A stretch of 64,000 bases of DNA from positions 1 to 64,000 of the forward strand of contig NZ_FNCW01000005.1 in the NCBI RefSeq assembly GCF_900099815.1. The letters are read 5' to 3'. The stretch is from Psychroflexus sediminis. Its GTDB lineage: Bacteria; Bacteroidota; Bacteroidia; Flavobacteriales; Flavobacteriaceae. A program made the translations under genes and the position numbers. The notes under the pieces are model-generated. The model searched no databases. It saw only the letters and a program-made list of their open reading frames with translations, and had not been told where the DNA came from. Positions 10,417 through 44,911 of this stretch are shown one piece after another. How positions within the stretch are numbered: position 1 is the first letter of the stretch; every line of letters begins with the position of its first letter.

Positions 10417-10700
10417 GTGAAAAAAATATAATAGGCAATGCTAAGCACGCTTGACAATACACTGAAGACTTGGAGAAAAAAAACCATTTTAGATTTTAAG
10501 CCAACCAAAACGGAGGCATTATAAATCATGGCGGCAATAACAATCCAGCTTAAGTGGATGACATGGTATACAGAATTACCATCTGCCAAAATCATCATAG
10601 CGGCAATAGATCCCAGGCAACTGGAAACAATGATGCCCAAAATGGAATTGGCCATATAAAACCTTTCAAAATCTGTAGATAATCGTTCAATAATGTTCAT
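10413..10700 (-). CDS. Small three-segment membrane protein leading the globin operon
   Basis: A 95-residue protein with three membrane helices (about residues 20-40, 47-67 and 72-93) and no recognisable motif apart from single Cys and His residues in or near the membrane. I do not recognise the family. It is the first gene after the Fnr-type operator at 10744-10757 and overlaps the globin gene by four bases, so it is probably expressed with globin and hemerythrin. Its start is only about eight bases after the expected transcription start. Confidence 0.65.
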   Translation of the reverse strand: MNIIERLSTDFERFYMANSILGIIVSSCLGSIAAMMILADGNSVYHVIHLSWIVIAAMIYNASVLVGLKSKMVFFLQVFSVLSSVLSIAYYIFFT

Positions 10701-10713
10701 GTTACTTTTTTTT

Positions 10714-10757
10714 ACAAATTACAAAGTCACATGAGCACTAGTTATGATTTGAATCAG
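10714..10757 (-). promoter_or_regulatory. FNR-type operator and -7 element before the globin operon
   Basis: Read on the minus strand, CTGATTCAAATCAT (10757-10744) is followed after exactly 22 bases by TAATTTGT (10721-10714). The 13-base core TGATTCAAATCAT is identical to that before ric. The start codon of the 95-residue gene is at 10700. Confidence 0.75.
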
Positions 10758-10776
10758 GTTGGCTTAATTCAGCCCT

Positions 10777-11373
10777 TTATCTGAAGATTTTACGCTTTTT
10801 AATTTGGATTTCATTCTTTTTTTCCAGGGCCTTGCATGCCCGTATTACCGTCTCTACCCGCAAGCCGGTAAGGTCAGCAATTTGCTGACGTGTTAAGTCT
10901 ACTTCCAGGACGTCTGTTGAATCCAGCTCATGGATATGCTTTTTGGTATAGTCCAGTAAGCGCAGGATACGGTGTTCGGGTTCCTGAGATGAAATTTCTG
11001 AAGCCATAATCGCTTTATAATAGAGTCGGGAGGCCAATACTTCTGAAATTTTAAGATGTGTGTCGGGGTTTTGTTTAAGCAATTCAAAAAAAATATCTTT
11101 TGGTAAGCGGTATAGTTCAACATCTGTGATCGCTTCAGCTCCGGCAGGGTAAGCCACATCTGCAAATAAGGGAGGCTCACCAAAACTTTGACCTGCATAG
11201 AAAATACCCTGGATGAACTCCTTACCATCCCGGTTGACGTTATTCATTTTTACCTCACCGGATTTCACCTGATAATAGAACTGGGCTTTACTTCCGTAGT
11301 CAAAAATCGTATTGCCTTTCTCTATTTCAATGAGGTCGGCATTGAATTGTTCTAATAAATGCACATCAATCAT
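10777..11373 (-). CDS. Crp/Fnr family transcription regulator
   Basis: A 198-residue regulator with an N-terminal cyclic-nucleotide-type beta-roll (residues about 15-110, with GQSFGEPPLF), a dimer helix and a C-terminal winged helix (TRQQIADLTGLRVETVIRAC, about 160-180). The recognition helix keeps the Glu and Arg of the E-x-x-x-R pattern that read GA/TC in Crp and Fnr sites. There is no N-terminal cysteine cluster, so it is not an Fe-S sensor like Fnr. Its gene lies immediately upstream of the globin operon on the same strand. It is the obvious candidate reader of one of the two operator families in this window. A palindrome GGTC-N4-GACC (11413-11424) in its own upstream region may be autoregulatory, which is only a guess. 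Confidence 0.9.
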   Translation of the reverse strand: MIDVHLLEQFNADLIEIEKGNTIFDYGSKAQFYYQVKSGEVKMNNVNRDGKEFIQGIFYAGQSFGEPPLFADVAYPAGAEAITDVELYRLPKDIFFELLKQNPDTHLKISEVLASRLYYKAIMASEISSQEPEHRILRLLDYTKKHIHELDSTDVLEVDLTRQQIADLTGLRVETVIRACKALEKKNEIQIKKRKIFR

Positions 11374-11455: not shown

Positions 11456-13885
11456 TTAAAACTCAATCTCTAGAGTTGCATACCAGTTTCTGGGGGCGGA
11501 AGGAATAATACCCGGTCCGGGATAGCCTGTTGCTCTCCTGGTAAAATAGGCTTCATCCAGAAGATTATTAACCCCTGTTTCGAGTTTAAAATTTTTATAG
11601 CGGTAGGACATAGAAAAATCAAGCACATCGTACTGCGGTATTTCACCTATAACGCCGCTTAAGCCCGCCTCAACAGAATTGGTCGCATCTGTAAACTGAT
11701 CTGATAAATACGAGTACTGTATACTTGCTCCAAAATTTTTGAACGCAAATCTGGCTCCGGTTTTCAGGTTGAGGTCAGGGACGAATTCAACATTGTTCCC
11801 CTCTATTCCCGGGCGTTGAGAATTGGTGTATTCTGAATTGATTACTGAAGTATTGACAAAATAATTCAAACTATAAGATGAACCTAAGCTAAAAATCTTT
11901 TTCAGATTAAAATCAAATAAGGACTCTACGCCATAGATCATGGCGTCGCCTACATTTCCACGTTCACTAATTATTCGATTATCGTCCAAAACCTTTTGTA
12001 CGAATCCAATTCTGTCTCGATAAGCCAAAGCAAATGCACTGGCGTCATACGAAAGGAAATTATTAAAGTTTCCCCTTAGACCTAAATCGGCTGTAAAGCC
12101 TTCTTCATCGGTGATATCGGGATCCACAGAAAAAGCGGGATTGCTGATATTGATATCGGAAAAGGTAACCGAGCGGTAATTTTCTGAAATGTTGGCATAC
12201 ATTTCTATATCATCAATCGGCTTATAGCTTAAACCAAGGCCTAAAAGCACAAACGAACGTTCAAAACTTCGCTGATCCGGAATGGTCCGGTCATCGATAA
12301 CGTTTCCGGCCGCATCGGTGTTGATACGTCTGAAAAATCCATCGCTTTCCGTTTTAATGTATTCAAACCTGAAACCAGGGGTTACTGAGAATTTGTCGTT
12401 TAGATAAAAAATATTTTCGCCGAACACAGCCACATTTGTATTGGGTAAATCGAATTCGGATTGGTTGGGATAGCCCGGATATTCGTCATTTCTAAAACTA
12501 AAATCAGGACCAAATCCATCAGAACCAGCTCCCTGCTGTTCCTGGTTATCCGAATCGTAATATTTCGCTCCAATCAAAAAAGTGGCATCGCTTTCAAATA
12601 ATTTGTATTCACTCAACAACCGAGTTTCAAATCCGAAATTGCTGAAATCACTCACAATCAAATCACGCTCCTGGTCAGGATCGATTTGGTTGACTCTGTT
12701 GGTTCTGAAGCCTAACGCATTTCTTTCAGCATTAAGACCAAAGAAATTGAAGGTGAACTGGGTTTGTTTTGAAAATTCGTGTTCTAATTTTAGATTATAA
12801 AGCAGCCAATCCACCTCAAACCAGTTGCGCTCCCGGTTGCTTTGGTAAGGATCTTCAGAAAACATCGCATCGGTTAAACCACCGCCTTGCTGGGCGAGAT
12901 AATTCATGTAGGTGACTTCGCCAGTCAGTTTTGTTTTTTCGTTAAATTCATAGCCCAGATGCGAAAACAGGTTGATGGATTCATATTCAGAGTTGGGCCT
13001 GAACCCATCACCCCGCTTATAATTCATGTAGGTATAATAACTCCAGTTGCCTTTGGTACCACTTAGGCTGGTGAAATTGGTGTAAAGTCCAAAACTGCCG
13101 GCTGTATTGCGCGTAACAACTTCAAGCGTCTTATACGGATTAGGTTCTTTCATAATGAAATTGACAAGCCCGCCAAACTGAGTTCCATATTGAAGTGAAG
13201 CCGCTCCCCTTATGATTTGTATCTGTTGTAAACCTTCAGACGCCGGGGTATAATAACTTTCAGGATAACCTAAAACATCGGCACTAATGTCATAACCATT
13301 TTGTCGCGTATTGAAATTGGCTGTCCGGTTCGGATTGAGCCCCCTGCCCCCTATATTAAGCTGTAAGCCGCCATCGTCATTCTGAAAAATATTTAAGCCG
13401 GCAACCTGACTGTAAATTTGCCTGGCATTGTTGGTTGCCAGGTTGGCCATGGACTGGTCAACCTGAATAACTTCGGTCTTCTTACCAGCATAGATGGCCG
13501 TACCTTCCACATCTTTAAGACGGTTGAGTGTAAAAACTTTTTCTTTTTGAGCGATGATTTGAACTTCAGAAAGCTCTTCAGACAAAGCTTGCAGTTCAAC
13601 CTTTAGTGAGGACGTTTCAGTCGGATCGATAGTCCGTTCAAGAATTTCGTACTGAAGTCCGTAGAAAATTAAATTCAACTCGGGTTTTGTGGTTTCAAAC
13701 TCAAAATAGCCCAAGGCATTGGTTTGTGCTAAAATGCCTTTTTCCTTGTCGTAAACATTGACCGACTTCAGTGGTTTTTGGCTGGCTTTTTCATAAACAT
13801 AACCTTCAACCGTATAGGTCTGAGCACGGCCCAGGACTGAAAATAAAACCAAAACTATTACTATACTAAAGTCCTTTAATGTCAT
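11456..13885 (-). CDS. TonB-dependent receptor, probable iron/siderophore type
   Basis: An 809-residue outer-membrane receptor with a signal peptide (first 21 residues), a carboxypeptidase-like domain (about 25-100), a plug domain (about 125-240, with VAGLNIFQNDDGGLQLNIGGRG split by loops) and a 22-strand barrel ending in an aromatic-rich strand. FecA-like features are the YTPASEGLQQIQIIRGAASLQYG plug end and LLSEYKLFE barrel repeats. The start overlaps the end of the HTTM gene by 20 bases, and imelysin and DUF4856 lipoproteins lie upstream on the same strand. This grouping suggests one metal uptake unit; the ligand itself is not shown by the sequence. Confidence 0.85.
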   Translation of the reverse strand: MTLKDFSIVIVLVLFSVLGRAQTYTVEGYVYEKASQKPLKSVNVYDKEKGILAQTNALGYFEFETTKPELNLIFYGLQYEILERTIDPTETSSLKVELQALSEELSEVQIIAQKEKVFTLNRLKDVEGTAIYAGKKTEVIQVDQSMANLATNNARQIYSQVAGLNIFQNDDGGLQLNIGGRGLNPNRTANFNTRQNGYDISADVLGYPESYYTPASEGLQQIQIIRGAASLQYGTQFGGLVNFIMKEPNPYKTLEVVTRNTAGSFGLYTNFTSLSGTKGNWSYYTYMNYKRGDGFRPNSEYESINLFSHLGYEFNEKTKLTGEVTYMNYLAQQGGGLTDAMFSEDPYQSNRERNWFEVDWLLYNLKLEHEFSKQTQFTFNFFGLNAERNALGFRTNRVNQIDPDQERDLIVSDFSNFGFETRLLSEYKLFESDATFLIGAKYYDSDNQEQQGAGSDGFGPDFSFRNDEYPGYPNQSEFDLPNTNVAVFGENIFYLNDKFSVTPGFRFEYIKTESDGFFRRINTDAAGNVIDDRTIPDQRSFERSFVLLGLGLSYKPIDDIEMYANISENYRSVTFSDINISNPAFSVDPDITDEEGFTADLGLRGNFNNFLSYDASAFALAYRDRIGFVQKVLDDNRIISERGNVGDAMIYGVESLFDFNLKKIFSLGSSYSLNYFVNTSVINSEYTNSQRPGIEGNNVEFVPDLNLKTGARFAFKNFGASIQYSYLSDQFTDATNSVEAGLSGVIGEIPQYDVLDFSMSYRYKNFKLETGVNNLLDEAYFTRRATGYPGPGIIPSAPRNWYATLEIEF

Positions 13886-15230
13886 CTTTGAAGGGTAGTA
13901 TCCAGCTTTTGGGCTGGAATGATTCGTATTGTTTTAATAAATCTACATCGGGGTCGATATAAGGCTGACTTCTTCTGCCATTGAGCGCTACATAGCTTTC
14001 TACATAAATTTCAATGGGCTCATGACCCTGGGCCTTAAATTGCTCCCCCAGGAAATGGGCATATTCCAAAATAAAATCGGGTTGTGTACTCATTTGTTTT
14101 TCCTGAAATGAAGATAAAAAATCTGTATTATCCACATAAAAATAGGTGTTTTCCTTAGGGTTCACCACCTTGAAATTGGCATAACCTCGCTTCTCCATCA
14201 GCATCACTCGCCACGAAAACCGGTAGCCTTCCTCTCGCCAAAACAATTCGCTGGGATATAAGGCATATCTGAATGGTAAAAGCATTTGAATGACAAAAAA
14301 AACAAGCAAACCAGAGACTATTAATTTTTGATTTGAATATTTAAACGTTCCTGTAGCAATGGGTTTCGGTTTTATGCTGAACAGCTTTAAAAACTCTTGA
14401 ATGCTGTGAATGATTTTATGATGCACTTTAGGGTCAAAAAACACCAAACTTCCAATGATCATGATATACGGAAACATTCCTATGGGAAAAAGGACACGCG
14501 TAAACACATGGAAAAACACAACCAGTACAAAGGCTAAAATTCGGGTTCTTTTATAGAGGAGCAGCAACGGAATGAACAGGTCGTATAGCATTCCAGACCA
14601 GCTCATAGCGAAGTGAAACCACTCCTGCTGCATGAGATTTCCACCGATAAACGGCAGATCATATTTAGAGGGCAGCCATATTTTCAAGGGCATGGCCTTA
14701 AACAACCAGTCGCTGTTGAGCTTTGCTAAACCCGCATAAAAATAAACCAGAGCCAGTAATAATTTTATAGAGTCGATAGTCCACTGGGGTATGAGCAGGT
14801 ACTGCTTCTTTTTAAATAGAGTATCGATAGAATAAAAAGCACTGGCCGGTAAAAAAATCATTAAAAAACTGACTAAACTTATAAAGTAGTAATGGTTGAG
14901 ATAAGTCGTCTTATCCATGAGTTCTATGTAGGTAAAACTCAAAAAAAACAGAATGATAGCCAGACGGTATTTCAACCCCAGCGCCACACATAAAGCAGAG
15001 AGTCCACAAATGATAAAAATGAGATAAGTCCAGTCGCCAACTGGTTTTACCCATTCAAAACCGTAGTAAGAAAAATGAAATTTCGGATCCAGGTAAAGCT
15101 TTTCAATCCAGCCATAACTCCAAAAACGAATAATGCTAATAAACATCATCAAACCAAAACCAATCCTAAAAACCGCTAAAGGTGCGGCTGAATTTTGCTG
15201 ATTGAAATAGGCTTTAAAGTGCTTTAACAT
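13866..15230 (-). CDS. HTTM domain (vitamin K carboxylase-like) membrane protein
   Basis: A 454-residue protein with about eight membrane segments of the HTTM type (horizontally transferred transmembrane domain, related to gamma-glutamyl carboxylase), followed by a soluble C-terminal part (about 330-454) with FSWRVMLMEKRGYANF. The N-terminus has the usual PLAVFRIGFGLMMF start. The role in bacteria is not established. It sits between imelysin and a TonB receptor, overlapping the latter by 20 bases, so it probably serves the same uptake system. Confidence 0.85.
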   Translation of the reverse strand: MLKHFKAYFNQQNSAAPLAVFRIGFGLMMFISIIRFWSYGWIEKLYLDPKFHFSYYGFEWVKPVGDWTYLIFIICGLSALCVALGLKYRLAIILFFLSFTYIELMDKTTYLNHYYFISLVSFLMIFLPASAFYSIDTLFKKKQYLLIPQWTIDSIKLLLALVYFYAGLAKLNSDWLFKAMPLKIWLPSKYDLPFIGGNLMQQEWFHFAMSWSGMLYDLFIPLLLLYKRTRILAFVLVVFFHVFTRVLFPIGMFPYIMIIGSLVFFDPKVHHKIIHSIQEFLKLFSIKPKPIATGTFKYSNQKLIVSGLLVFFVIQMLLPFRYALYPSELFWREEGYRFSWRVMLMEKRGYANFKVVNPKENTYFYVDNTDFLSSFQEKQMSTQPDFILEYAHFLGEQFKAQGHEPIEIYVESYVALNGRRSQPYIDPDVDLLKQYESFQPKSWILPFKDDIKGL

Positions 15231-15238
15231 AGGTAAAG

Positions 15239-15270
15239 AAAGGGATTTTCAAAACTATGAAAATCCCTTT
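15239..15270 (-). terminator. Hairpin between imelysin and HTTM genes
   Basis: AAAGGGATTTTC (15239-15250) pairs perfectly with 15259-15270 over an eight-base loop. On the minus strand the arm ends in TTTCTTT, giving a modest terminator or a processing/attenuation site between two genes that otherwise look like one operon. Confidence 0.6.
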
Positions 15271-15301
15271 TTAAATTTAAAATTAGATAGCTTATAAATG
15301 A

Positions 15302-16420
15302 TTAGTCTCCATCTGCATCAACATAATCTACACTGATGTCTAAGGCCTGAAGCATATCAACTTTCAGTAACACAACTGCCAGCTGAATGATGTCAAAAGT
15401 CTCGGTCATCGCGACATTATTGGTTTTCACCTGTTCAGCAAAACTTTCGTTCAGGGTGTTTATTTTGGTTCGGGCTGCAGTGTACTGAGACGTGATGGAG
15501 GCACTTAAGTCTTCATTTCCGTTGATAGAATTCAGGTAATCAGCTAAACTCCTGCCATCACTACCACTCTGATAAGCGCGTCCAGTAAAGAAATCCTGAA
15601 TAGCGTTCATAGCCTCCAAAGCCAGGGCTTTAGAGAAATCATATTTATGATAAGCTTCTACGCGATCCGGTAAAGGGTTTTGAGAAAAAACACCTGCCGG
15701 AATACCAAATTTATTGGCTCTGAACCCTTTTTCATAATAATAAATGAAATCATTCACAACCAAATTGATAGAGCCCGTAGCCGTATTATCTGTACTGCTC
15801 ACAAATGTATCCCGATAGCTATTTTTCCAGTCCTCCAGAACCGTTTGCGTTAAAGTTTGCATTCTATCGGTCAAATCGGACAGATAGATTTTGCGTTTAT
15901 CAGCTGAAGCAGAGGTCGTATAAAATTCCACCACTTCCGTTTCTGTATTTCCTACACCATAAAGCATATAATCTAAAGCCGGGAAACCAACAGCATCATT
16001 ATTGTTGACACTTGACAAATCATAATCTTGAGATTCGATATTGTTCTGGATATCCTGAATGTTTGTAGGGTAGACATTCATCTGAAAAATGTAGTTGATG
16101 TTTTCAGCCATACCCACATTAAACATCTCAGCATACTGCCAGACTTTATAAGCATCCTGCCATGCCGTTCTTAAGTTGGCAAGGTTTGCAGGCGTTGGTT
16201 CAGCCATAAAAACCTCTTTTTCAGCTGCCAGGATTTCAAGTTTGGAATTCAAATCCTCGTAAACGGGAATGATGATGTTATCGGCCCAGTTGATGAGCAT
16301 TGCGGAACGATCAAAGTTATCTGTTTGATTATCATTTCCACCAGAAGCATCATCATCTGAACTACAGGAAAACATGAGTACAACAACTGTAAATAAGGCT
16401 AAAAATGTTCTCTTAATCAT
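15302..16420 (-). CDS. Imelysin family lipoprotein (M75)
   Basis: A 372-residue lipoprotein with lipobox MFSC (Cys19) followed by an acidic and Asn/Gly spacer, then an imelysin/EfeO-like helical domain made of two four-helix halves. Members are linked to iron uptake (IrpA, EfeO). The family GxHxxE motif appears here as GFPALDY (near residue 144), so the usual His and Glu are missing. Upstream is a DUF4856 lipoprotein and downstream are HTTM and TonB receptor genes. An iron-binding surface lipoprotein is likely, but metal binding by the standard motif is doubtful. Confidence 0.85.
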   Translation of the reverse strand: MIKRTFLALFTVVVLMFSCSSDDDASGGNDNQTDNFDRSAMLINWADNIIIPVYEDLNSKLEILAAEKEVFMAEPTPANLANLRTAWQDAYKVWQYAEMFNVGMAENINYIFQMNVYPTNIQDIQNNIESQDYDLSSVNNNDAVGFPALDYMLYGVGNTETEVVEFYTTSASADKRKIYLSDLTDRMQTLTQTVLEDWKNSYRDTFVSSTDNTATGSINLVVNDFIYYYEKGFRANKFGIPAGVFSQNPLPDRVEAYHKYDFSKALALEAMNAIQDFFTGRAYQSGSDGRSLADYLNSINGNEDLSASITSQYTAARTKINTLNESFAEQVKTNNVAMTETFDIIQLAVVLLKVDMLQALDISVDYVDADGD

Positions 16421-16494
16421 ATGCTTATTTTTTTTGCAAATATAAAAGTAAAGTGAGGTTTGCTTATTTAATTTAATCTTAAACTAATTCTAAA

Positions 16495-17700
16495 TTAGCT
16501 ACCAGCCTGCTCTACAGTAAAGCTAAATCGTGCTGCTATCTGAACGGAAAGTGCATCTAAGGTGGCTTCAGTCACATCCCAAAATCCGTTGCCTTCCATC
16601 AAAGTAGATAACATAGCCTGAACTTCCGTTCTAGAAAAATACGGACTCACAGACCCTGGCATTCTTGTGAACTGAAGACTGTTGATAAATCCGTAAGCTT
16701 CAGATAAATCATGAAAAGCTGCACCTTTATCATTGGCTAAGCTGCTTTTAGCCTGCTGCAGGTAATATACCGCTCTGATACCACTGATTTTAGAGATTTG
16801 CTCTCTGATGATTTCTGCCTGCTGATCTCTAAGCTCATAATCTTCAGCAACAATAGCTGCGCGACCTAATACAAAAGCGTCATAAACCACATCTGCAATA
16901 CCTGTAAAATCGGGATCATTTTCTACTCTCCCTAAGTACTTGTTTAAGTATTGATCCTGTCCGAATTGAGGATTGTCTTTATTATCGGTTCCATAGAGGT
17001 ATCCAAAGGCTTCATCCCATTTGTGCTCCATAACCGTATAACTTTTACCGTCAACCGTAATCTCGTTATTGTTGTTTTCGATATTATCGGCTTCATCCAG
17101 TACAGAAGTACTCAAATAATTGTTAAGCATCTGATCGGTCATTACACCGCCTAAAAGCGTTAAAATGATAGCCTGGTTATACTCCAGTCCTTTGGCATTC
17201 ACGTATCTTATGCTTCCTCCGCCAGCTTCTTGAATCTGTCCTGCTACACCAACTGTGGCATTAGTATTCCAATTCGTAAAAATATCGTTGGCCTGGGCAC
17301 TAATCCATGCGTCAACTTGATTTCTTATGGCAAGGGCTTCCGTAGTGTTGGCCGAAAAATAGTCTCTGGAGGCCGCGGTTTTACTTCTTAAATTCTTACT
17401 GGATGCATTTAAATCGGCATCAGAAAAATCACTATCCCCTTCCTGATGCGCATACATGGAAAGCAATTCTGTTTCTGTTTTAGTATTGTCTAGTAAAGAG
17501 CTTTTCAGTTCATTCGCCATCAAAATCCTGGTTGTTTGTCCATCATAACTCACGGTGCTCGTTCCATTACGCTCAAAACTGTAAGTGTCTGGCACTTCTA
17601 CAACAGGATCGATGATTATGTCATCATCATCACTACAGGACATAAATACTAAAGCTGAAACACTTAAAAATAGACTTGTAATTACATTTGATCTTTTCAT
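16495..17700 (-). CDS. DUF4856-type lipoprotein
   Basis: A 401-residue lipoprotein with signal ending VFMSC (Cys22) followed by an Asp-rich spacer. The rest is mostly helical with the start SFERNGTSTVSYDGQTTRILMANEL and two halves, resembling the DUF4856 family found next to imelysin genes in Bacteroidota. Function is not known; by neighbourhood it is part of the metal uptake group. It is probably the first gene of that transcription unit, because 277 noncoding bases precede it. Confidence 0.75.
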   Translation of the reverse strand: MKRSNVITSLFLSVSALVFMSCSDDDDIIIDPVVEVPDTYSFERNGTSTVSYDGQTTRILMANELKSSLLDNTKTETELLSMYAHQEGDSDFSDADLNASSKNLRSKTAASRDYFSANTTEALAIRNQVDAWISAQANDIFTNWNTNATVGVAGQIQEAGGGSIRYVNAKGLEYNQAIILTLLGGVMTDQMLNNYLSTSVLDEADNIENNNNEITVDGKSYTVMEHKWDEAFGYLYGTDNKDNPQFGQDQYLNKYLGRVENDPDFTGIADVVYDAFVLGRAAIVAEDYELRDQQAEIIREQISKISGIRAVYYLQQAKSSLANDKGAAFHDLSEAYGFINSLQFTRMPGSVSPYFSRTEVQAMLSTLMEGNGFWDVTEATLDALSVQIAARFSFTVEQAGS

Positions 17701-17977: not shown

Positions 17978-19015
17978 CTAATACGATTCAACATCAGATT
18001 TCACCTTACCCCAGAATGTTCTATACACCACATAGCTGTATAAAAGCACTAACGGACCGCCTACAGCGACGAAGCCCATCATGATTTTTAAGGTCTTGGT
18101 AGAAGCCGCTGCATTATAAATAGTAATGCTGTTGTCTTGAATAGAATTTGATAAAAGCAGACGGGGATATAGTTCAAACGCCACAATAACAAGCAGTAAG
18201 GCTATGGTTAAACTTGTAAAGATGAAGGCCCAGCCATATTGCTTTTTACTTGCTAATCGGGGCACGTTGGCGATGCTGAGAAATACGAGAAAAGGGACGG
18301 CAAACAGGATTTTGTTTTCTTCAAAAACGGTGAGCAAATGTTCAACTTGGAAAAAACCGTAGGTTGTTGTTACGATATAGGACAGGATGAAAAATGCCAT
18401 GCCTATCTTTAAAAATCCCTGAATCCTGTTATAAAGCTTACCTTCTGTCTTTAATAAAAGGTAGATGGCACCGTGCATCATAAAAAGGGCAAGACTGGTA
18501 ACTCCCACTAAGATGGAAAAGGGATTTAAAAATTCAAAAAAACCTCTGCCTACGTATTCGTAATTTTCGTCCAGTGGCATTCCGTTCAAAATATTACCAA
18601 GTACAACTCCTAATAATACAGCCAGCATAATACTGGATATGGAATAACCCCAGTCCCACATTTTTCTCCACCAGGGCATGTCTTCCATATTTCTGAATTT
18701 GATAGAGATTCCCCTAAAAATGATGAACAAAAGAAAAAGAATAAAGGGCGTGTACATGGCAGAAAACAAAGTACCGTAGAAAACCGGAAATCCGGCAAAC
18801 AAGGTTCCGCCTCCTATGACCAGCCAGACTTCGTTACCATGCCAGGTAGGGTCTATTGCCTTAAGAGCGGTTTCCCTGCTGCTATCTTTCCTGAAAAACA
18901 TATGCCAAGCACCAGCTCCAAAATCGAAGCCATCCAGGATAGCATAGCCAGAAAAAAGCCCGCCGACGACGAGAAACCACCATGTTGGATAATCTAAACC
19001 TAAAAAAGTTTCCAT
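17978..19015 (-). CDS. cydB: Cytochrome bd ubiquinol oxidase subunit II
   Basis: A 345-residue membrane subunit of the high-affinity quinol oxidase. Motifs are GYAILDGFDFGAGAWH (about residues 23-38) and TWHGNEVWLVIGGGTLFAGFP, and the length fits the family. In the E. coli enzyme the second motif reads WDGNEVWL, so the Asp is His here, which may be normal for this phylum. It follows cydA by five bases. A high-affinity bd oxidase fits the low-oxygen and sulfide theme of the region. Confidence 0.95.
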   Translation of the reverse strand: METFLGLDYPTWWFLVVGGLFSGYAILDGFDFGAGAWHMFFRKDSSRETALKAIDPTWHGNEVWLVIGGGTLFAGFPVFYGTLFSAMYTPFILFLLFIIFRGISIKFRNMEDMPWWRKMWDWGYSISSIMLAVLLGVVLGNILNGMPLDENYEYVGRGFFEFLNPFSILVGVTSLALFMMHGAIYLLLKTEGKLYNRIQGFLKIGMAFFILSYIVTTTYGFFQVEHLLTVFEENKILFAVPFLVFLSIANVPRLASKKQYGWAFIFTSLTIALLLVIVAFELYPRLLLSNSIQDNSITIYNAAASTKTLKIMMGFVAVGGPLVLLYSYVVYRTFWGKVKSDVESY

Positions 19016-19020
19016 ATGTT

Positions 19021-20400
19021 TTATTTTTTTGAGACCACTTCTGCGATTTCTTCATTTAAACTTCCCTGATCAAAATCGATGTCGCTAGATGGGCCACTTT
19101 GTATTTTCTTATTCATCAAATAAACAAACAAAAGAAAAAGAATAAAATAGACGATAAAAAACAAGATGAGAGAGAATAAAACCTGATTGGCCTGTACGCT
19201 TTTGGACAGGGCATCTGAGGTTCTTAGCAATCCATACACCACCCAGGGCTGCCTTCCTAATTCTGCGGTAAACCAGCCAAACTGATTGGCCAGCTGCGGA
19301 AGTAAAGCCGTAAAGACAAACGTCCATAACAGCCATTTTTTCTCAAAGAGTTTACCTCTTTTCCATTGCCATAAAGCAAATAAACTCAAAGCAATCAAGA
19401 ACATGCCAATAGCTACCATGAGGTGATATAACTGAAAAATGGCATTGACCTGAGAAGGTTGGTCTTCTTCGGGAAATGCATTCAATCCTGTAACTGGAGT
19501 TTCAAAATCCTGATCCAGCATAAAGGACAAACCACCGGGAATCTTAAGACCTGTGGTTTCTTTATTTTCTTTATTTACCCAACCCAGCAGGTATAAGTCT
19601 GCAGGCGCTTCTGCCTCAAAGTGACCTTCCATGGCGGCTAACTTGGCCGGCTGATTTTCTGAAACACCCTCTGCGGAACTATGACCTGTAAACAATTGCG
19701 CCAAAGAACAAACAGCAGCAACAATAAGAGTAATTTTAAAGGCTTTTTTAGATAACACCACGTAACGCCCTCTCAAAATATAATAGGCATGTACACTTAA
19801 AATCAAGAATGTCCCGGCTAAAAAAGCACCCAGCCAGACGTGAGTTAAACGGTCTACAGATGAGGGATTAAACACCATAGCCCAAAAATCAACAATTTCT
19901 GCTCTGGCCTGCATTCCCTCCCCTACAATATGATAACCTGCAGGAGTTTGCTGCCACGAGTTAGCCACGACTATCCAAACTGCAGAAAACATAGAGCCTA
20001 GAAAAACAGCCCAAGTCGCTACCAAATGCACCCATGGTTTTACGCGATTCCACCCAAATAAAAGGATTCCCAGTGCACTACTCTCAAGGGCAAAGGCGAA
20101 GATACCTTCAGCTGCAAGTGCACTTCCAAATATATCACCAACATAACGGGAATAAGTTGCCCAGTTGGTTCCAAACTCAAACTCCATCACAATACCGGTG
20201 ACCACCCCAATACCAAACGTAATGGCAAAAATTTTGGTCCAAAATTTGGCTAATACTTCGTATTCTTTCTTTTTGGTTCGTAAGTACATACTTTCGAACA
20301 CAACCATAATAAGACCTAAACCAATACTAAGGGGCGGATAGATATAGTGAAACGCTACGGTGAAGGCAAACTGTATTCTGGAGAGAATTTCAACATCCAT
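19021..20400 (-). CDS. cydA: Cytochrome bd ubiquinol oxidase subunit I
   Basis: A 459-residue haem b/d subunit. It has the haem b595 ligand His18 in FTVAFHYIYPPLSIGLG, ENQPAKLAAMEGH, YHLMVAIG with the probable haem b558 Met, and GRQPWVVYGLLRTSDALS. The Q-loop is of the short type. I choose the ATG at 20400 over 20409, because the sequence MDVEILSRIQFAF is the usual N-terminus and the promoter -7 element ends at 20417. The operator GTAACATAAGTAGC (minus strand) lies 23 bases before that -7 element. Confidence 0.95.
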   Translation of the reverse strand: MDVEILSRIQFAFTVAFHYIYPPLSIGLGLIMVVFESMYLRTKKKEYEVLAKFWTKIFAITFGIGVVTGIVMEFEFGTNWATYSRYVGDIFGSALAAEGIFAFALESSALGILLFGWNRVKPWVHLVATWAVFLGSMFSAVWIVVANSWQQTPAGYHIVGEGMQARAEIVDFWAMVFNPSSVDRLTHVWLGAFLAGTFLILSVHAYYILRGRYVVLSKKAFKITLIVAAVCSLAQLFTGHSSAEGVSENQPAKLAAMEGHFEAEAPADLYLLGWVNKENKETTGLKIPGGLSFMLDQDFETPVTGLNAFPEEDQPSQVNAIFQLYHLMVAIGMFLIALSLFALWQWKRGKLFEKKWLLWTFVFTALLPQLANQFGWFTAELGRQPWVVYGLLRTSDALSKSVQANQVLFSLILFFIVYFILFLLFVYLMNKKIQSGPSSDIDFDQGSLNEEIAEVVSKK

Positions 20401-20416
20401 AATCAACAATTTTTTA

Positions 20417-20461
20417 CAAAAATAAAAGATAGTCGTTAGATAAGTTAGCTACTTATGTTAC
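20417..20461 (-). promoter_or_regulatory. GTAAC-type operator and -7 element before cydA
   Basis: On the minus strand GTAACATAAGTAGC (20461-20448) is followed after 23 bases by TATTTTTG (20424-20417), a perfect TAnnTTTG -7 element; the cydA ATG is at 20400. The operator is a variant of GTAAC-N4-GTTAC seen before sqr and the TSUP gene. Confidence 0.75.
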
Positions 20462-20509
20462 TTAATATAAAAATGAAGGATATCAAACCTGACTTAAGAG
20501 TAAAATTAA

Positions 20510-20553
20510 GTAACAATTGTAGCAAATCTAAAAGGGTATATCCTTTATTTTTG
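20510..20553 (+). promoter_or_regulatory. GTAAC-type operator and -7 element before the Cys-protein/OprC-like genes
   Basis: GTAACAATTGTAGC (20510-20523) is followed after exactly 22 bases by TATTTTTG (20546-20553), a perfect -7 element. The site is an inverted partner of the cydA site 49 bases away, so the divergent pair is probably co-regulated. The expected transcription start coincides with the GTG start codon at 20558. Confidence 0.75.
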
Positions 20554-20557
20554 CACT

Positions 20558-20941
20558 GTGAAATCAATCAAACTCCCTATATCGGTTGCACTTAGCCTAA
20601 CTGTGTTTCTATTCACGATTAAGTCGGCGTTCTGGCTATCTTATTATATAGTGTTCACCGATAACTTTATAGAAAACTACTGTGAAAACACAGACAAGCC
20701 AGAACTGGAGTGTGATGGTAAATGCTTTCTGAGTGACGTCCTCGACAAAAAAGAAACGGAAACTCCAAAAAATGCTTCTATTTATCTGGAAAGTAAACTT
20801 ATTTTCACAACTGTTCTTTTTGAAACCGATATAGTTTTAGATTCCTTTATTCTACAAAAACCACACACCTTTTTCTATACTTCATTATATAAATTTCATT
20901 ATTTACAGAGCAGCTTCAAGCCCCCTGCAATTGTTGTTTAA
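20558..20941 (+). CDS. Small membrane-anchored Cys-rich protein before TonB receptor
   Basis: A 127-residue protein with one N-terminal membrane helix (about residues 8-32) and a periplasmic part that holds three cysteines as YCEN...ECDGKC (residues about 48-61). Small proteins with a YCxN...CxGKC pattern occur next to metal TonB receptors in Bacteroidota; that is from memory. Metal handling, perhaps copper, is inferred. The start is GTG: no in-frame ATG exists before the membrane helix. The -7 element ends only five bases before it, so the mRNA may be leaderless. The TonB receptor follows after 48 bases. Confidence 0.7.
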   Translation: MKSIKLPISVALSLTVFLFTIKSAFWLSYYIVFTDNFIENYCENTDKPELECDGKCFLSDVLDKKETETPKNASIYLESKLIFTTVLFETDIVLDSFILQKPHTFFYTSLYKFHYLQSSFKPPAIVV

Positions 20942-20989: not shown

Positions 20990-23287
20990 ATGAAATTAAT
21001 ACTAAGTGCCATTTGTTTTGTAGCTGGTTTTGTCATGCTCAATGCTCAAACCAAGACCATAGAAGTAAAAGACGCACAAACCAAAGAAATCCTGGGCGGA
21101 GTATACGCCATTAATCAAAACGACGAAGAAGATTACCGCATCACTGAAAATAAAACTCTCAAACTGGAAATCGGTGAAACCTACCTTATAAGTTATATGG
21201 GGTATGCCTCTGAACGTCTGAAAATTAATAGCTCATCTCCTGAAGTTATTTTTCTCAAAGCTCAAAATACAGAACTGCCAGAAGTTCTGGTCTCAGGAAA
21301 AATATTCCAGGATCCGGTGATGAATATCACCACACCAGACTTAACAGAAAGCGTCAGTCAGCCCAAAAATGTAGCCGATCTCTTTCGGGATATTAATGGG
21401 TTTGGACTCATCAAGCGAGGAAATTACGCTATAGATCCGTCTTTCAGAGCTTCTCACTATGAGCAGTTAAACATTCAGTACGATGGCGGAACCAAAGTGA
21501 TGCATGCCTGTCCTAACAGAATGGATCCAATCACGACTCATGTCATGCCTGAAGATATTGCTAAGATTGAGGTTGTACGAGGCCCATACACCATGAGGTA
21601 TGGTGCCACTTTTGGCGGATTGATCAATATGGTTTCCAAGCGTCCGGAGATTGGAAAATATGGCTTTTCTGGAAATGCATCTTCAGGTTTTGAGTCCAAT
21701 GGCGGCTCTCAAGTCCAAATGCTTCGCCTCCAATATGCTGAGGAAAAATTGGATGTGGTTGGTATGTATGGATACCGAGATTTTGGCAATTACGAAGATG
21801 GTGCTGGCCGAGAAATACCCTCTTCCTTTAGAAGCATAGATTACAACCTGCGAATGGGCTATAACTTTAGTAGTTTAGAACGCCTTCAGCTACATTGGAG
21901 ACAATCCTTTGGGAGAGATGTGCTTCACGCTTCCTTACCTATGGATTCAGACTACGATGATTCTTCCATGCTGTCTTTAGATTATTTCAAAAAAAGACCA
22001 GGTAAAACCCTGCGAAACATCCAGGCTAAAGCCTACTATTCTTACGTAGACCACCTAATGAGCAATAGTAGACGAGGTAACTTCAATACAGTGGAAGCCG
22101 TTTCTCCTGTCGAAGCAACCACAGCTGGAGGTCGTTTTGAACTGGAATGGAAGCTGGATGAGTTCTGGACGCTGTTTACCGGAACCGACGCTCTGCTTAT
22201 CAGCAGAGATGGAGTACGGAATCGCTTGGTCAAACAAAATCCTATGGGAATGCCTCTAGATCCTCCCGTTGCCTTTATCGACAAAATCTGGCAGAATTCC
22301 TTTATTAATGATTATGGATTATTTGCAGAGTCACGTTACAAACTCAATTCCTCGACAGTCCTTAATGCTGGTGTGCGTTATGATTTGGTCCATTCAGATA
22401 TTCAGGATCCTGCATCAGATTTTCAGGCTTACTATCCAGGTTTAGAAAACCGAACAGAACATAATTTTAGCGCTACTGTTTCACTTAAAAAACTACTGAA
22501 TGCGGATAATCAACTGGAGTTTGCTTTTGGTCGTGGCGTGCGTTCTGCTAACATGATAGAACGGTTCATCAATCACTTTCAGGTGGGCCAAGATCCGTTT
22601 GAATACATCGGTAATCCCGATCTGGATGCTGAGGTGAATAACCAATTTGAAGTTGCTTACACAGGTAAGAAAATACTTGATGGCGCCATTAACAGACTAG
22701 ACTGGGGCGCTTCCGTATATTTTTCTCACTTCGAGAATTATATCGTTGCCATTATAGATCCTACCAAAACCAGAAAGTTTATGCCCAATCAGGAACCATT
22801 AAACCCAAAGGTCTTCAGAAATCTGGAGGATGCTTATAAAACTGGCTTTGAAGCGAACTTTGGAATAGATTTCTTCAACAACTTTCAATTTGATGCCGAA
22901 GTTGCCTATGTCTACGCGAGAAACGAAGACCTCAGCGAATCTCTCCCACTCACTCCTCCATTGCGCAGCAAATTCAGCTTGCAATACAATAAAAACAAAT
23001 TCTGGGCTGCCACCGACCTAAGAGTCGTAAGTCAGCAAGATGAACTGGCTACATCCTTTGGAGAAAATCTGGCAACACCAGGTTACGAACTGGTAGATTT
23101 TCGACTGGGTTATGAGTTGACTCCAGGTCTAAACTTAGGAGCTGCAGTGCTAAATGCATTTGACGAGCAGTATTATGACCATTTGAATTTCGCTTTTAGA
23201 AATCAGGCCAACGCCAATTTAAGCGGCATGGAACGCCTCACCGATCCAGGGCAGAATTTTACTCTCTTTGTGAAGTATGCGTTTTAA
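20990..23287 (+). CDS. TonB-dependent receptor, OprC/NosA-like copper type
   Basis: A 765-residue outer-membrane receptor with a signal peptide (about 1-19), a short carboxypeptidase-like domain (about 20-90), a plug (about 105-225) and a beta-barrel ending in LFVKYAF. The plug holds HACPNRMDP, which gives a CxxxM motif (Cys174, Met178), followed by an HxM (His184, Met186). Pseudomonas OprC binds copper with a CxxxM plus HxM set, although there the HxM lies farther along in the barrel, and NosA is its relative linked to NosZ copper supply. Copper import is therefore likely, not proven. The gene is downstream of the Cys-rich membrane protein, under a GTAAC-type operator. Confidence 0.75.
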   Translation: MKLILSAICFVAGFVMLNAQTKTIEVKDAQTKEILGGVYAINQNDEEDYRITENKTLKLEIGETYLISYMGYASERLKINSSSPEVIFLKAQNTELPEVLVSGKIFQDPVMNITTPDLTESVSQPKNVADLFRDINGFGLIKRGNYAIDPSFRASHYEQLNIQYDGGTKVMHACPNRMDPITTHVMPEDIAKIEVVRGPYTMRYGATFGGLINMVSKRPEIGKYGFSGNASSGFESNGGSQVQMLRLQYAEEKLDVVGMYGYRDFGNYEDGAGREIPSSFRSIDYNLRMGYNFSSLERLQLHWRQSFGRDVLHASLPMDSDYDDSSMLSLDYFKKRPGKTLRNIQAKAYYSYVDHLMSNSRRGNFNTVEAVSPVEATTAGGRFELEWKLDEFWTLFTGTDALLISRDGVRNRLVKQNPMGMPLDPPVAFIDKIWQNSFINDYGLFAESRYKLNSSTVLNAGVRYDLVHSDIQDPASDFQAYYPGLENRTEHNFSATVSLKKLLNADNQLEFAFGRGVRSANMIERFINHFQVGQDPFEYIGNPDLDAEVNNQFEVAYTGKKILDGAINRLDWGASVYFSHFENYIVAIIDPTKTRKFMPNQEPLNPKVFRNLEDAYKTGFEANFGIDFFNNFQFDAEVAYVYARNEDLSESLPLTPPLRSKFSLQYNKNKFWAATDLRVVSQQDELATSFGENLATPGYELVDFRLGYELTPGLNLGAAVLNAFDEQYYDHLNFAFRNQANANLSGMERLTDPGQNFTLFVKYAF

Positions 23288-30866: not shown

Positions 30867-32114
30867 CTAAACAGCTTCGCCTTTCATCATTTTATTCCAG
30901 TATAAATAGGGAAGACCGTATTTTTTGAGCATCCATAATCTCCAGTGTTCTTTGGAAGAGTCGAAAATAAGCATTTGCTTGAGTTTCGGATCTGGAGTGA
31001 AATTGTTCTCATAATCAAATTCAGCTAAAACCATTTTTCCATAACCTGTTACCAAAGGACATGAGGAATAGCCCTGATAGTCTGTATTACTTGCCGGTTT
31101 ATTGTTCATCAAAAACATCAGGTTTTCGATTACCACAGGAACCTGTTTTCTTATAGCTGCTCCTGTTTTGGCTGTTGGAAGTGCTGCCACATCACCCAGT
31201 CCAAAAATATTGGGATAGGTATTGTGCTGAAGTGAGTTGATATTCACATCTAACCAGCCTTCTTCGTTCACCAGGTTGGAGTCTCTGATAAATTGAGGCG
31301 CAGCCTGTGGCGGAGCTAAATGCAACATATCAAAGGGCATTTCTATGGTTTCCCCAGATATTTTTTCTTCGATTTGAGTATTAGCTTTCAATTCACTCTT
31401 ATCTTCTCCCACATACTTGAACGTAACTATTTTTTTCTCCGCATCAATTTTAACCGGCGCATAAAAAGGCTTGAAGTGAATGCCATAGCGATCTACCACT
31501 TTTTTTAAGGTTTCATTGATTTCATCAACGCCTAAAAGCACAGATCCAGGCGTAGCAAATATCACCTCAGCGTCTATATTATGCTTTTTGAAATAATCGG
31601 CCGCCAGGTAAGCTATTTTTTGAGGTGCTCCGCCACATTTGATTGGAGTTGTGGGTTGCGTAAACACGGCATTGCCGCCTTTAAAGTTTTTGAGGACTTC
31701 CCAGGTATGTTCGGAATCCGTATAATTACTGCAAACTACTCCTTTGTCCAAAGCAGATTCTAAGCCTTCTATTTGTGAAGGCTCCATCACCAATCCTGGG
31801 GCAACGATGAGATAATCATAAGCAATGTCACCGCTATTTTTGGTGTTGACTAAATTCTTATCGGCATCAAAGCCAGTGGCATAATCCTGAATCCAGTCTG
31901 CGCCTTTGGGGATTAACTCTTTCATTGGCCTGGCAGTATCTTCATAATCGTAAGTTCCTGCCCCAACCAGGGTCCAGGCCGGCTGGTAGTAATGTGTATC
32001 TGCGGGATCGATTATTCCAATCGAAAGACTGGAGTCCTTTTTTAGTAATTGTGCTGCAGACATGATTCCTGCAGTCCCTCCTCCGATGATTAGAACTGAA
32101 TATTTTGATTTCAT
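30867..32114 (-). CDS. sqr: Sulfide:quinone oxidoreductase
   Basis: A 415-residue FAD flavoprotein that oxidises sulfide and passes electrons to the quinone pool. The N-terminal FAD site is VLIIGGGTAGIMSA (residues 7-20), followed by YDYLIVAPG. Cysteines that fit the redox pair of the type II (mitochondrial-like) enzymes are Cys160 in PIKCGGAPQK and Cys352 in GYSSCPLVTGYGK; Cys128 is extra. The C-terminus (about 390-415) is the membrane-binding segment. The promoter carries a near-perfect GTAAC-type operator at 32161. The bd oxidase and TSUP genes have the same operator, so a sulfide-handling regulon is plausible. Confidence 0.88.
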   Translation of the reverse strand: MKSKYSVLIIGGGTAGIMSAAQLLKKDSSLSIGIIDPADTHYYQPAWTLVGAGTYDYEDTARPMKELIPKGADWIQDYATGFDADKNLVNTKNSGDIAYDYLIVAPGLVMEPSQIEGLESALDKGVVCSNYTDSEHTWEVLKNFKGGNAVFTQPTTPIKCGGAPQKIAYLAADYFKKHNIDAEVIFATPGSVLLGVDEINETLKKVVDRYGIHFKPFYAPVKIDAEKKIVTFKYVGEDKSELKANTQIEEKISGETIEMPFDMLHLAPPQAAPQFIRDSNLVNEEGWLDVNINSLQHNTYPNIFGLGDVAALPTAKTGAAIRKQVPVVIENLMFLMNNKPASNTDYQGYSSCPLVTGYGKMVLAEFDYENNFTPDPKLKQMLIFDSSKEHWRLWMLKKYGLPYLYWNKMMKGEAV

Positions 32115-33142: not shown

Positions 33143-33820
33143 CTAATTTATAATAAACTCTACTGCCGATTGAATGTGTAAATCGGTCGTTTTAATAAAA
33201 GGCGTTGTTGAACTTTCATCTTTGAGCAAAATGGGTAATTCGGTGCAACCCAAAATGGCAGCATCGATTTCATGCTGATGCTTTTTAATAAGTTCTTTAT
33301 AAAATGTTTTGGCTTCTTTAGAAAATTTTCCTTTTGTCAATTCATTGGAAACGAAATAATGAGACTTTTCGATGGCTTCTTCTTCTGGAATGATAAGCTT
33401 TAAATCGTAGTTCTCGATAAGGTAATCCTTTAAAAAAGCCTTGGTTATAGTTGGTCGGTTTCCAAGCAGCAGTAAGGATTTGTAATTCTGTTTCACCGCT
33501 TCTTTTCCAATCGAATCACCAATATGTAAAAAAGGGATTTCGATTTGAGGCTGAACGTACTCTACAGCCATATGGGGCGTGTTGGCACAAATCACAATAG
33601 CTTCAGCACCAGCTTCCTGGAGTTTTTGGGCAACCCTTAGGTATACCGAATTTATTTCATCCTGCTGCTGTCGCCGCATCACATCTATAGGAATGCTATA
33701 CAGCAAAAGTTCCGGGTTGGAATTGTTTTCAGTTTGCGCAATGACCTGAGCATTGATGGCCTTGTAATATTCTAAAGTGGAGTGATAAGAGGTTCCTCCA
33801 ATAAGTCCTAACCGTTTCAT
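33143..33820 (-). CDS. Aspartate/glutamate racemase family protein
   Basis: A 225-residue cofactor-independent racemase with the two catalytic cysteines: Cys78 in VICANTPHM and Cys192 in LGCTELPIL. N-terminal MKRLGLIGGTSYHSTLEYY is typical of the YgeA/aspartate racemase branch. The substrate cannot be fixed from sequence. A GTAAC-type operator lies 184 bases upstream with a hairpin between, so it may have a long leader. Confidence 0.87.
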   Translation of the reverse strand: MKRLGLIGGTSYHSTLEYYKAINAQVIAQTENNSNPELLLYSIPIDVMRRQQQDEINSVYLRVAQKLQEAGAEAIVICANTPHMAVEYVQPQIEIPFLHIGDSIGKEAVKQNYKSLLLLGNRPTITKAFLKDYLIENYDLKLIIPEEEAIEKSHYFVSNELTKGKFSKEAKTFYKELIKKHQHEIDAAILGCTELPILLKDESSTTPFIKTTDLHIQSAVEFIIN

Positions 33821-33973: not shown

Positions 33974-34017
33974 GCAAGTTAGGATTACTCCTCTATCTTT
34001 ATGGTAACTTAAGTTAC
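33974..34017 (-). promoter_or_regulatory. Perfect GTAAC-type palindrome with -7-like element
   Basis: GTAACTTAAGTTAC (34004-34017) is a perfect 14-base palindrome. Reading on the minus strand, TAACTTGC (33981-33974) follows after exactly 22 bases; the plus-strand direction has no such element. The gap 33821-34205 holds this site, the hairpin at 33927, a second weak hairpin TTCAGAG/CTCTGAA (34070-34090) and the terminator at 34159; no gene is seen in it. Confidence 0.6.
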
Positions 34018-44039: not shown

Positions 44040-44843
44040 CTAGTGTGTAAATTCTTTATAAACGATGTATATGCCCATGAGCAGGACAAACCAGCCAAAG
44101 CCTTTTTTGAGTTTACCGCCGTCAATAAATTTATTCAGCCAGATGCCCACAAAAATTCCGACGACCGAAAGTCCTGTAAATATTCCCAAAAAGACCCAAT
44201 CAATCTCCATATTTTGAACATCTCCAAGAAAACCAATCAAAGATTTGACAGCTATAATCAATAATGAGGTGGCTACTGCTTTTTTCATAGGGAGTTTGGC
44301 CAGTAATACCAGGGCAGGAATGATAAGAAAGCCCCCTCCTGCCCCTACGATTCCTGTAAGGAAACCCACGACAATACCTTCAACAATAATAAGCGGGTAA
44401 TTGTATTTCACCTCAACCTCGGCTTCCTCCAGTTCTTCCTTTTTGTCTTTGATCATGGAATAGGAGGCCAATACCATAATGAGTGCAAAAAACAGCATAA
44501 TACCTATGTCCTTGGTCACTTCGAAGCCCGAAACCGTAAATATGGACTCGGGTATGGCCGGAATGGCAAATTTACGGGTGAGGTAAACGGCAATAAAGGC
44601 AGGGATGGCAAAAACAGTGGCTGTTTTAAAATCGACGAGGCCTTTTTGCATATTCCTAAGCGCTCCTACAAGACTTGCTGTTCCTACTACAAAAAGAGAA
44701 TAGGCTGTAGCGGTAACCGGGTCTTCGGAAAGCAGATAAACCAACACGGGAACAGTAAGAATAGATCCGCCACCACCAATTAATCCAAGTACTACACCTA
44801 TGACAAGTGCCCCAAAATATCCTAGTAATTCTATTATTTCCAT
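44040..44843 (-). CDS. TSUP family anion exporter (TauE/SafE)
   Basis: A 267-residue membrane protein with two homologous halves, each starting with a Gly-rich motif: GLIGGGGSILTVPVLVYLL (about 18-36) and GIVGAGGGFLIIPALVLL (about 165-182). TSUP proteins move sulfite, sulfonates or related anions. I place the start at 44843, because the upstream in-frame ATG at 44870 lies inside the -7 element. The promoter has the same GTAAC-type operator as sqr, with identical spacing, so export of a sulfur compound is a reasonable inference. Confidence 0.87.
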   Translation of the reverse strand: MEIIELLGYFGALVIGVVLGLIGGGGSILTVPVLVYLLSEDPVTATAYSLFVVGTASLVGALRNMQKGLVDFKTATVFAIPAFIAVYLTRKFAIPAIPESIFTVSGFEVTKDIGIMLFFALIMVLASYSMIKDKKEELEEAEVEVKYNYPLIIVEGIVVGFLTGIVGAGGGFLIIPALVLLAKLPMKKAVATSLLIIAVKSLIGFLGDVQNMEIDWVFLGIFTGLSVVGIFVGIWLNKFIDGGKLKKGFGWFVLLMGIYIVYKEFTH

Positions 44844-44867: not shown

Positions 44868-44911
44868 CAAAGATAGAACTCGACCTAAGCCCGGGCAGTA
44901 ACTTTGGTTAC
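44868..44911 (-). promoter_or_regulatory. GTAAC-type operator and -7 element before the TSUP gene
   Basis: On the minus strand GTAACCAAAGTTAC (44911-44898) is followed after exactly 22 bases by TATCTTTG (44875-44868), a perfect TAnnTTTG element. The start codon at 44843 follows 24 bases later. Confidence 0.8.

Follow-up and report, generated by a model that had tools for sequence, protein, structure and literature searches.

Divergent promoters of cydA and an OprC-like receptor gene in Psychroflexus sediminis share a Crp/Fnr-type operator that also precedes sulfide-oxidation genes

In Psychroflexus sediminis, the start codons of cydA (ATG at 20400, minus strand) and of a gene for a small cysteine-rich protein (GTG at 20558, plus strand; hereafter the Cys-protein) are separated by a gap of 157 bases (20401-20557), which contains two inverted operators of the form GTAAC-N4-GTAGC, each followed by a -7 element TATTTTTG. 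Positions are those of the window, that is, the whole stretch of 64,000 nucleotides that was analysed (contig NZ_FNCW01000005.1, positions 1 to 64,000). The distance from operator to -7 element is 23 bases at cydA and 22 bases at the Cys-protein and its neighbour, an OprC-like receptor gene. We find it fairly probable, taking the explanation as a whole, that these are class II Crp/Fnr operators read by a two-cysteine protein encoded outside the window (the C29 protein), with a persulfide as signal and with sulfide oxidation, bd oxidase and copper uptake under joint control. An earlier note on this DNA had described divergent promoters sharing one operator at spacings of 23 and 22 bases; the observation was confirmed and all its coordinates check. 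The features of the region are the following:

20448 to 20461, minus strand: cydAB operator GTAACATAAGTAGC; all 15 close relatives have a GTAAC-class site here, 22 or 23 bases from the -7 box
20417 to 20424, minus strand: cydA -7 element TATTTTTG; each of the 15 close relatives has TAnnTTT[GA] with this spacing
20510 to 20523, plus strand: Cys-protein/OprC operator GTAACAATTGTAGC; an operator stands in this place in all 20 loci read, this one included
20546 to 20553, plus strand: Cys-protein/OprC -7 element TATTTTTG, seen also in the relatives' loci
19021 to 20400, minus strand: cydA, cytochrome bd oxidase subunit I (Pfam PF01654, E 1.5e-165)
17978 to 19015, minus strand: cydB, cytochrome bd oxidase subunit II (Pfam PF02322, E 1.8e-92)
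20558 to 20941, plus strand: small Cys-rich protein (CENTDKPELECDGKC), its GTG at the predicted transcription start, with matches in 38 of 60 genomes including its own
20990 to 23287, plus strand: OprC-like TonB-dependent receptor (phmmer to 6fok, E 6.7e-47)

Both GTAACATAAGTAGC and GTAACAATTGTAGC differ at two positions from the palindrome GTAAC-N4-GTTAC. In F. psychrophilum the TAnnTTTG box occupies positions -12 to -5, according to the available text of the source (PMC9723704), and, with the -7 box placed there, the transcription starts are predicted at about 20412 (minus strand) and 20558 (plus strand), where the earlier note had 20411 and 20558; the operator centres consequently fall near -42.5 at cydA and -41.5 at the Cys-protein/OprC promoter. 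From a binding place centred about 41.5-42.5 bases ahead of each start, a Crp/Fnr dimer would bring RNA polymerase onto the TAnnTTTG box. The Cys-protein/OprC messenger looks leaderless, since in 16 of 20 loci (L129-L148; 20546-20560 in the window, the locus in which the frame was verified) the predicted start coincides with a GTG or ATG placed exactly four bases past the -7 box.

The Cys-protein matched no family among the Pfam and NCBIfam models. Regarding the receptor, the name OprC-like, used in the earlier note, is favoured by the alignment of C174xxxM178 and H355xM357 with the four copper ligands of 6fok, but the copper-receptor family model TIGR01778, the best of 22 models, gives 248 bits with a cut-off of 472. 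OprC binds copper through C143, M147, H323 and M325, as stated in the accessible part of its description (PMC8610252); the protein has in common with OprC and NosA the TonB-dependent receptor type and the copper ligands CxxxM and HxM, whereas it differs in its small Cys-rich partner and in its sulfide-type operator, OprC being, in the same text, anaerobically induced and copper-repressed (PMC8610252). Beside cydAB, at 11456-17700, a cluster was observed that comprises a TonB receptor, an HTTM/vitamin-K-carboxylase-like protein, an imelysin and a DUF4856 protein.

The same operator stands, in perfect form, at three other places of the window, and further copies with a -7-like box were found elsewhere in the genome:

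32161 to 32174, minus strand: perfect operator GTAACTTTAGTTAC ahead of sqr, with TATCTTTA at 22 bases
30867 to 32114, minus strand: sqr, sulfide:quinone oxidoreductase (phmmer to mitochondrial SQOR 6mp5, E 3.8e-91)
44898 to 44911, minus strand: perfect operator GTAACCAAAGTTAC ahead of the TSUP gene, with TATCTTTG at 22 bases
44040 to 44840, minus strand: TauE/SafE (TSUP) sulfur exporter (Pfam PF01925, E 1.9e-45)
34004 to 34017, minus strand: perfect operator GTAACTTAAGTTAC, with TAACTTGC at 22 bases
Outside the window, site at C27:185861: YeeE/YedE sulfur-transport pair (Pfam), with TAATTTGC at 23 bases
Outside the window, site at C29:17376: operon of an HMA protein and a metallo-lactamase/rhodanese protein (from domains), with TATTTTGC at 23 bases
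Outside the window, site at C27:305084 (L090:1033-1498): DUF983 gene (Pfam), with TATTTTTG at 22 bases

Thus, operators stand before sqr, the metallo-lactamase/rhodanese gene, the TSUP gene and yeeE, where the binding of a regulator is putative, and the genes behind GTAAC operators belong mostly to sulfide oxidation or sulfur transport. The NCBIfam SQR model scored below its cut-off on the sqr product, and the NCBIfam models scored far below theirs on the metallo-lactamase/rhodanese protein; the matches of the latter among solved structures, at moderate E-values, include BpPRF (a persulfide dioxygenase fusion) and ETHE1, and its domains, together with these distant structures, indicate a probable persulfide dioxygenase. 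The proposal of the earlier note that the cydA site joins the sqr/TSUP pattern was borne out, and the site is kept in 15 of 15 relatives whose CydA is at least 80% identical. Next after the operator at 34004, behind a leader some 150 bases long, comes an Asp/Glu racemase gene (33143-33820); its membership is less clear than that of the others.

A chance origin of these sites was rejected. A matrix trained on 28 sites from relatives only, one of which (G064) is identical to the cydA site of the window, gave eight strand-hits at five places of the window with scores at or above that of the cydA site, the weaker of the two in the gap, against a mean of 0.07 strand-hits in 100 Markov-1 windows. 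The five places are the cydA and OprC sites and the sqr, TSUP and 34004 sites, the last three being read on both strands; TAnnTTTG followed at 22 or 23 bases for three matrix hits of the window and for none in the 100 random windows. In the 2.97-Mb genome, 47 places lie within one mismatch of GTAAC-N4-GTTAC, four of them in the window, and the surroundings of the 43 others were read; GTAACATAAGTAGC and GTAACAATTGTAGC, with two mismatches each, are outside this set. By the ORF rule eight of the 47 are intergenic, and a -7-like box (relaxed to TAnnTTTN or TAnnTTGY) occurs at 22 or 23 bases in exactly six, all intergenic, and in none of the 39 non-intergenic places. Perfect palindromes were not enriched over a reversed control pattern, with seven versus six in this genome and mixed counts in the other 59; since the count is close to that of the control, the motif is informative only at its promoter position. 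Likewise, TGTGAYNNNNRTCACA at two mismatches was uninformative in this genome (284 matches versus 243 for the control).

Conservation of the cydA site was followed in 60 genomes including this one; a search for CydA at E 1e-100 gave matches in 19 of them: the own genome, 15 at 80-97% identity and three at 39-43%. Comparison of the cyd upstream regions of relatives, the check named in the earlier note, found in all 15 relatives with CydA at least 80% identical a GTAAC-initial site with at most two mismatches, 22 or 23 bases before TAnnTTT[GA]. The promoter-far half is GTAAC in every one of them and the palindrome is perfect in six, and the promoter-near half reads GTAGC in three, GTTGC in three and GTGGC in one, and is degenerate in two (GTAACATTTATGAC, GTAACCAATATAAC). 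Deviations of the GTAGC, GTTGC or GTGGC type always fall, among these 15, in the promoter-near half, a recurrence that fits a graded affinity. The three distant loci (L055-L057, CydA 39-43% identical) are outside the count of 15: L055 has GTAATCAATGTTAC at 22 bases before TAATTTTG, and L056 and L057 have no site.

A second set, which overlaps the first in some genomes, comprised the best 80 named cydA loci, where the closest CydA sequences belong to Psychroflexus species, Flavobacteriaceae, with 92-94% identity for most. A site with at most two mismatches at a spacing of 21-23 bases occurs in 28 of these 80 loci (20 at 22, seven at 23 and one at 21), compared with zero or one at each of ten control spacings. 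It is present in 7/7 Psychroflexus loci and in 21/73 others from several genera, including Zobellia, Flagellimonas, Kordia, Aquimarina, Dokdonia, Flavobacterium and Robiginitalea. It is absent from the other 52 of the best 80 named loci, among them eight of Cyclobacteriaceae type (L186, L187, L189-L193, L195) with CydA 85-90% identical; because such similar proteins lack it, the operator is not, as a rule, inherited with the gene. The Cyclobacteriaceae-type CydA without operator suggests a transfer of cydAB between families with changed control.

Two Crp/Fnr proteins have to be considered as readers of the GTAAC sites:

Outside the window, G000:C29:16737-17372 (L061:7738-8373): Crp/Fnr protein of 211 residues, the C29 protein
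10777 to 11373, minus strand: Crp/Fnr protein of 198 amino acids (Pfam), the window Crp

The C29 gene ends three bases before the perfect operator that leads into the HMA and metallo-lactamase/rhodanese operon. Its product scores 38 bits with PF00027 and 35.9 bits with PF13545, both over the cut-off, and is thus assigned to the Crp/Fnr superfamily; in agreement, the best fold matches of its AlphaFold model (pLDDT 82.5, from 15 sequences) are Crp/Fnr proteins. Among the four proteins of the genome with a cNMP domain, it is the only one having the helix R-V-x-V-S-R; the recognition segments, picked by eye, are R-V-V-V-S-R in C29, V-E-T-V-I-R in the window Crp, S-E-S-L-I-R in C31 and S-Q-A-L-S-R in C14. 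The C29 helix (R182-V-V-V-S-R187) belongs to the NtcA type and would suit GTA-N8-TAC. From the R-V helix and the published residue code it follows that C29 should fit GTAAC sites and the E-type proteins TGA sites; most likely, then, the GTAAC class is read by the C29 protein rather than by the window Crp, which appears to be a poor fit to these sites.

At E 1e-5 the regulator has matches in 50 of 60 genomes, counting its own, and in 33 of the 50 the identity is at least 50%. They include all 15 genomes with a close CydA (the gene is split between contigs in G085), so that every case in that comparison has both regulator and cydA site. A site with at most one mismatch starts no more than 17 bases past the end of the regulator match in 17 of 30 loci including the own one, no such site follows the gene in the other 13 of these 30 loci, and sulfur-like genes, recognised by eye, follow in 20 of the 30. 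G004 has four perfect palindromes and no regulator match. In G007 (L117) the regulator, a site with TAGTTTTG at 22 bases, a TSUP gene and cydA (both identified with Pfam) follow one another in one direction; this order is a second link of a C29-type regulator to bd oxidase. Cys77 and Cys84, as well as the helix residues S181, R182, V183, V184, S186 and R187, are invariant in 15 of 15 aligned sequences and, by eye, in 30 of 30. In the model, one cysteine stands just before and the other at the end of a short sensor-domain helix (79-84), a part in which the model has low confidence, with pLDDT 71 for residues 71-80 and 58 for residues 81-90; in Crp, this region is the ligand-holding part. Since sulfur genes are most of the putative targets and two cysteines are invariant, we infer that the C29 protein senses persulfide and acts as a persulfide-responsive class II activator.

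Parts of this arrangement are already published, as far as the available portions of the papers show: the operator consensus is that of HcpR2 and the promoter layout that of NtcA. In class II promoters of cyanobacteria, NtcA binds GTAN8TAC at -41.5 with a TAN3T box, according to the text available (PMC3898017). NtcA is among the top profile and fold neighbours of the C29 protein, and the likeness extends to the DNA: GTAACnnnnGTTAC is GTA-N8-TAC, it has the same place before the promoter box, and the R-V-x-V-[ST]-R helix is shared in the alignment. Here, the operators of GTAN8TAC form lie 22 or 23 bases from the -7 box, the -41.5 position deriving from predicted starts and the pairing with C29 being putative. 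Unlike NtcA, C29 has two sensor-domain cysteines and its putative targets are in sulfur metabolism and respiration rather than nitrogen. The identification of the regulator as NtcA was rejected, as TIGR03697 gives 46.5 bits against a cut-off of 244.95.

The second likeness is closer at the operator and weaker in the protein. Rodionov et al. (2005) tied residues 180/181 of the family to the operator and, in the part of the paper available, assigned GTAACnnnnGTTAC to the proteins that lost Glu181, named HcpR2 (PMC1274295), so that the two consensus sequences are identical. On this ground the reader could be an HcpR2-type heme protein of the kind described in Bacteroides, clostridia and others, with NO as signal and the sulfur genes as passengers, and Met79, invariant in the regulator, might be guessed to be a heme ligand. 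We regard this as highly improbable: the target of HcpR2 is hcp, and its residue 181 is Pro, whereas C29 has Val at that position, preceded by Arg, and the regulator loci carry sulfur genes; a PF03063 search found no hcp in the 99.95% complete genome and was positive in a Bacteroides control; finally, the HcpR of P. gingivalis is not among the C29 profile hits at E 0.01 and ranks 29th by fold, at 16% identity. Membership in HcpR2 is thus rejected on the missing hcp, and also on Val181 in place of Pro, and membership in NtcA on the score. Known persulfide sensors are SqrR/BigR, of the ArsR family, and CstR, of the CsoR family, which are Cys-pair repressors of sulfide-oxidation genes; C29 is similar to them in its conserved cysteine pair, but differs in its Crp/Fnr fold and in being a predicted activator.

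In the proposed mechanism, persulfide formed from sulfide would modify Cys77 and Cys84 and switch the C29 protein on, and the active protein would induce sqr, the dioxygenase, the sulfur transporters and bd oxidase. The latter would sustain respiration when sulfide blocks copper oxidases; also in this genome and in a few relatives the copper receptor would be driven too, offsetting the copper trapped by sulfide. Sulfide lowers available copper. In E. coli, the bd oxidases are insensitive to H2S and bo3 is not, in the text available (PMC8657789). If the mechanism is true, it explains why bd oxidase and the copper importer would be induced together with sulfide oxidation: copper oxidases are poisoned by sulfide, which also takes free copper away. 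Bd oxidase is, on the other hand, the classic low-oxygen enzyme, and this role would favour a regulon that answers low oxygen or, by way of the cysteine pair, the overall redox state, rather than sulfide as such; the anaerobic expression of OprC and NosA in Pseudomonas, reported in the accessible text of PMC8610252, points the same way. Such a reading seems to us decidedly unlikely, since most of the other genes behind GTAAC operators serve the oxidation of sulfide or the transport of sulfur, and a response to oxygen alone would make this a strange collection. Should the persulfide reading hold, a searchable sulfide regulator and its operator would become available for Flavobacteriaceae and some other Bacteroidota. 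No paper assigning a Crp/Fnr sulfide regulon in Bacteroidetes was found in a survey of titles and abstract openings of mainly non-subscription literature.

On the OprC side the operator keeps its place and changes its class. Among the 38 genomes of 60, including the own one, with Cys-protein matches, the best 20 loci were read, and in 20/20 an operator stands 21-23 bases before the -7 box; it is of GTAAC class in five (G000, G077, G067, G071, G074) and TGA-N6-TCA, another Crp/Fnr class, in 15. The classes separate well: with the GTAAC matrix the OprC site of the window reaches 17.2 and that of G072 -2.2, while the TGA matrix gives -0.8 and 19.2, respectively. The predominance of the TGA class (15 of 20 OprC-side loci) could mean that the OprC-side site of the window is a decayed TGA-N6-TCA operator resembling GTAAC by chance, which would leave cydA alone in the regulon; we hold this to be unlikely, because, besides its score of 17.2, the site shares the GTAGC variant of cydA itself, and GTAAC-class OprC sites occur also in G077 and G067, with the same gene order, and in G071 and G074.

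Four relatives (G067, G077, G079, G082) have the divergent cydA/OprC order. The earlier note had taken a loss of the sites in close relatives keeping this order as evidence against its reading; on the cydA side the GTAAC site is kept in 4/4, but on the OprC side a GTAAC-class site is found only in G077 and G067, with GTGAC-N4-GTCAC in G079 and G082. The co-regulation of a terminal oxidase and a copper importer, as that note had put it, is therefore strong at cydA and species-limited at OprC, where 15 of 20 loci have TGA-N6-TCA. Readers of GTGAC-type OprC sites were sought in G068, G078 and G085, and of their PF00027 matches none looked like a DNA-binding protein except the two-cysteine regulator and a Crp fused to a receiver. 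Associations of the OprC operator class with the presence of the window Crp (Fisher p 0.30) and with linkage to cydA (one-sided p 0.07) are suggestive at most, the genomes being related.

More broadly, and only tentatively, we propose that the two-cysteine Crp/Fnr protein of Flavobacteriaceae may be a direct persulfide sensor and activator acting through an NtcA/HcpR2-type operator, which would join sulfide oxidation, a sulfide-resistant oxidase and, through the exchange of one promoter's operator, copper uptake; in this genus the operator ahead of OprC would change between the TGA-N6-TCA and GTAAC classes while its distance from the promoter stays the same, in some genomes back to back with cydA. 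The OprC promoter would then represent a natural series, in which an operator passes between two Crp/Fnr proteins with its spacing to the promoter fixed.

The window Crp is present in 18 of 60 genomes including its own. Its match is divergent to Cys-protein/OprC in six (G060, G062, G064, G075, G081, G084), with a TGA-N6-TCA site in 6/6, where it probably controls OprC; in the window, such a site lies beside its own gene:

10745 to 10756, minus strand: TGA-N6-TCA site TGATTCAAATCA, 23 bases before TAATTTGT

The TGATTCAAATCA promoter is likely to represent a second Crp/Fnr regulon, and the window Crp is the likely reader of TGA-N6-TCA sites. Its gene lies 9 kb from the cydA/OprC gap, and this, with its position beside Cys-protein/OprC in the six genomes, would agree with a single protein reading both sites, cydAB and OprC forming a local regulon that answers low oxygen, NO or copper and has no tie to sulfide. 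That possibility appears very unlikely, given that the window Crp occurs in only 4 of the 15 genomes with a GTAAC site at cydA (G060, G064, G075, G084; E 1e-20), that its helix has V-E and not the R-V of the NtcA type, for which the published code, in its available part, predicts a base other than the A of GTAAC, and that the promoter beside it carries a site of the TGA class, the matrix of which gives the OprC site of the window a negative score. Behind TGATTCAAATCA (10640-10760 region), adjoining the window Crp gene, there are a small ORF, a globin-like protein, recognised by eye and matching no family, and a hemerythrin.
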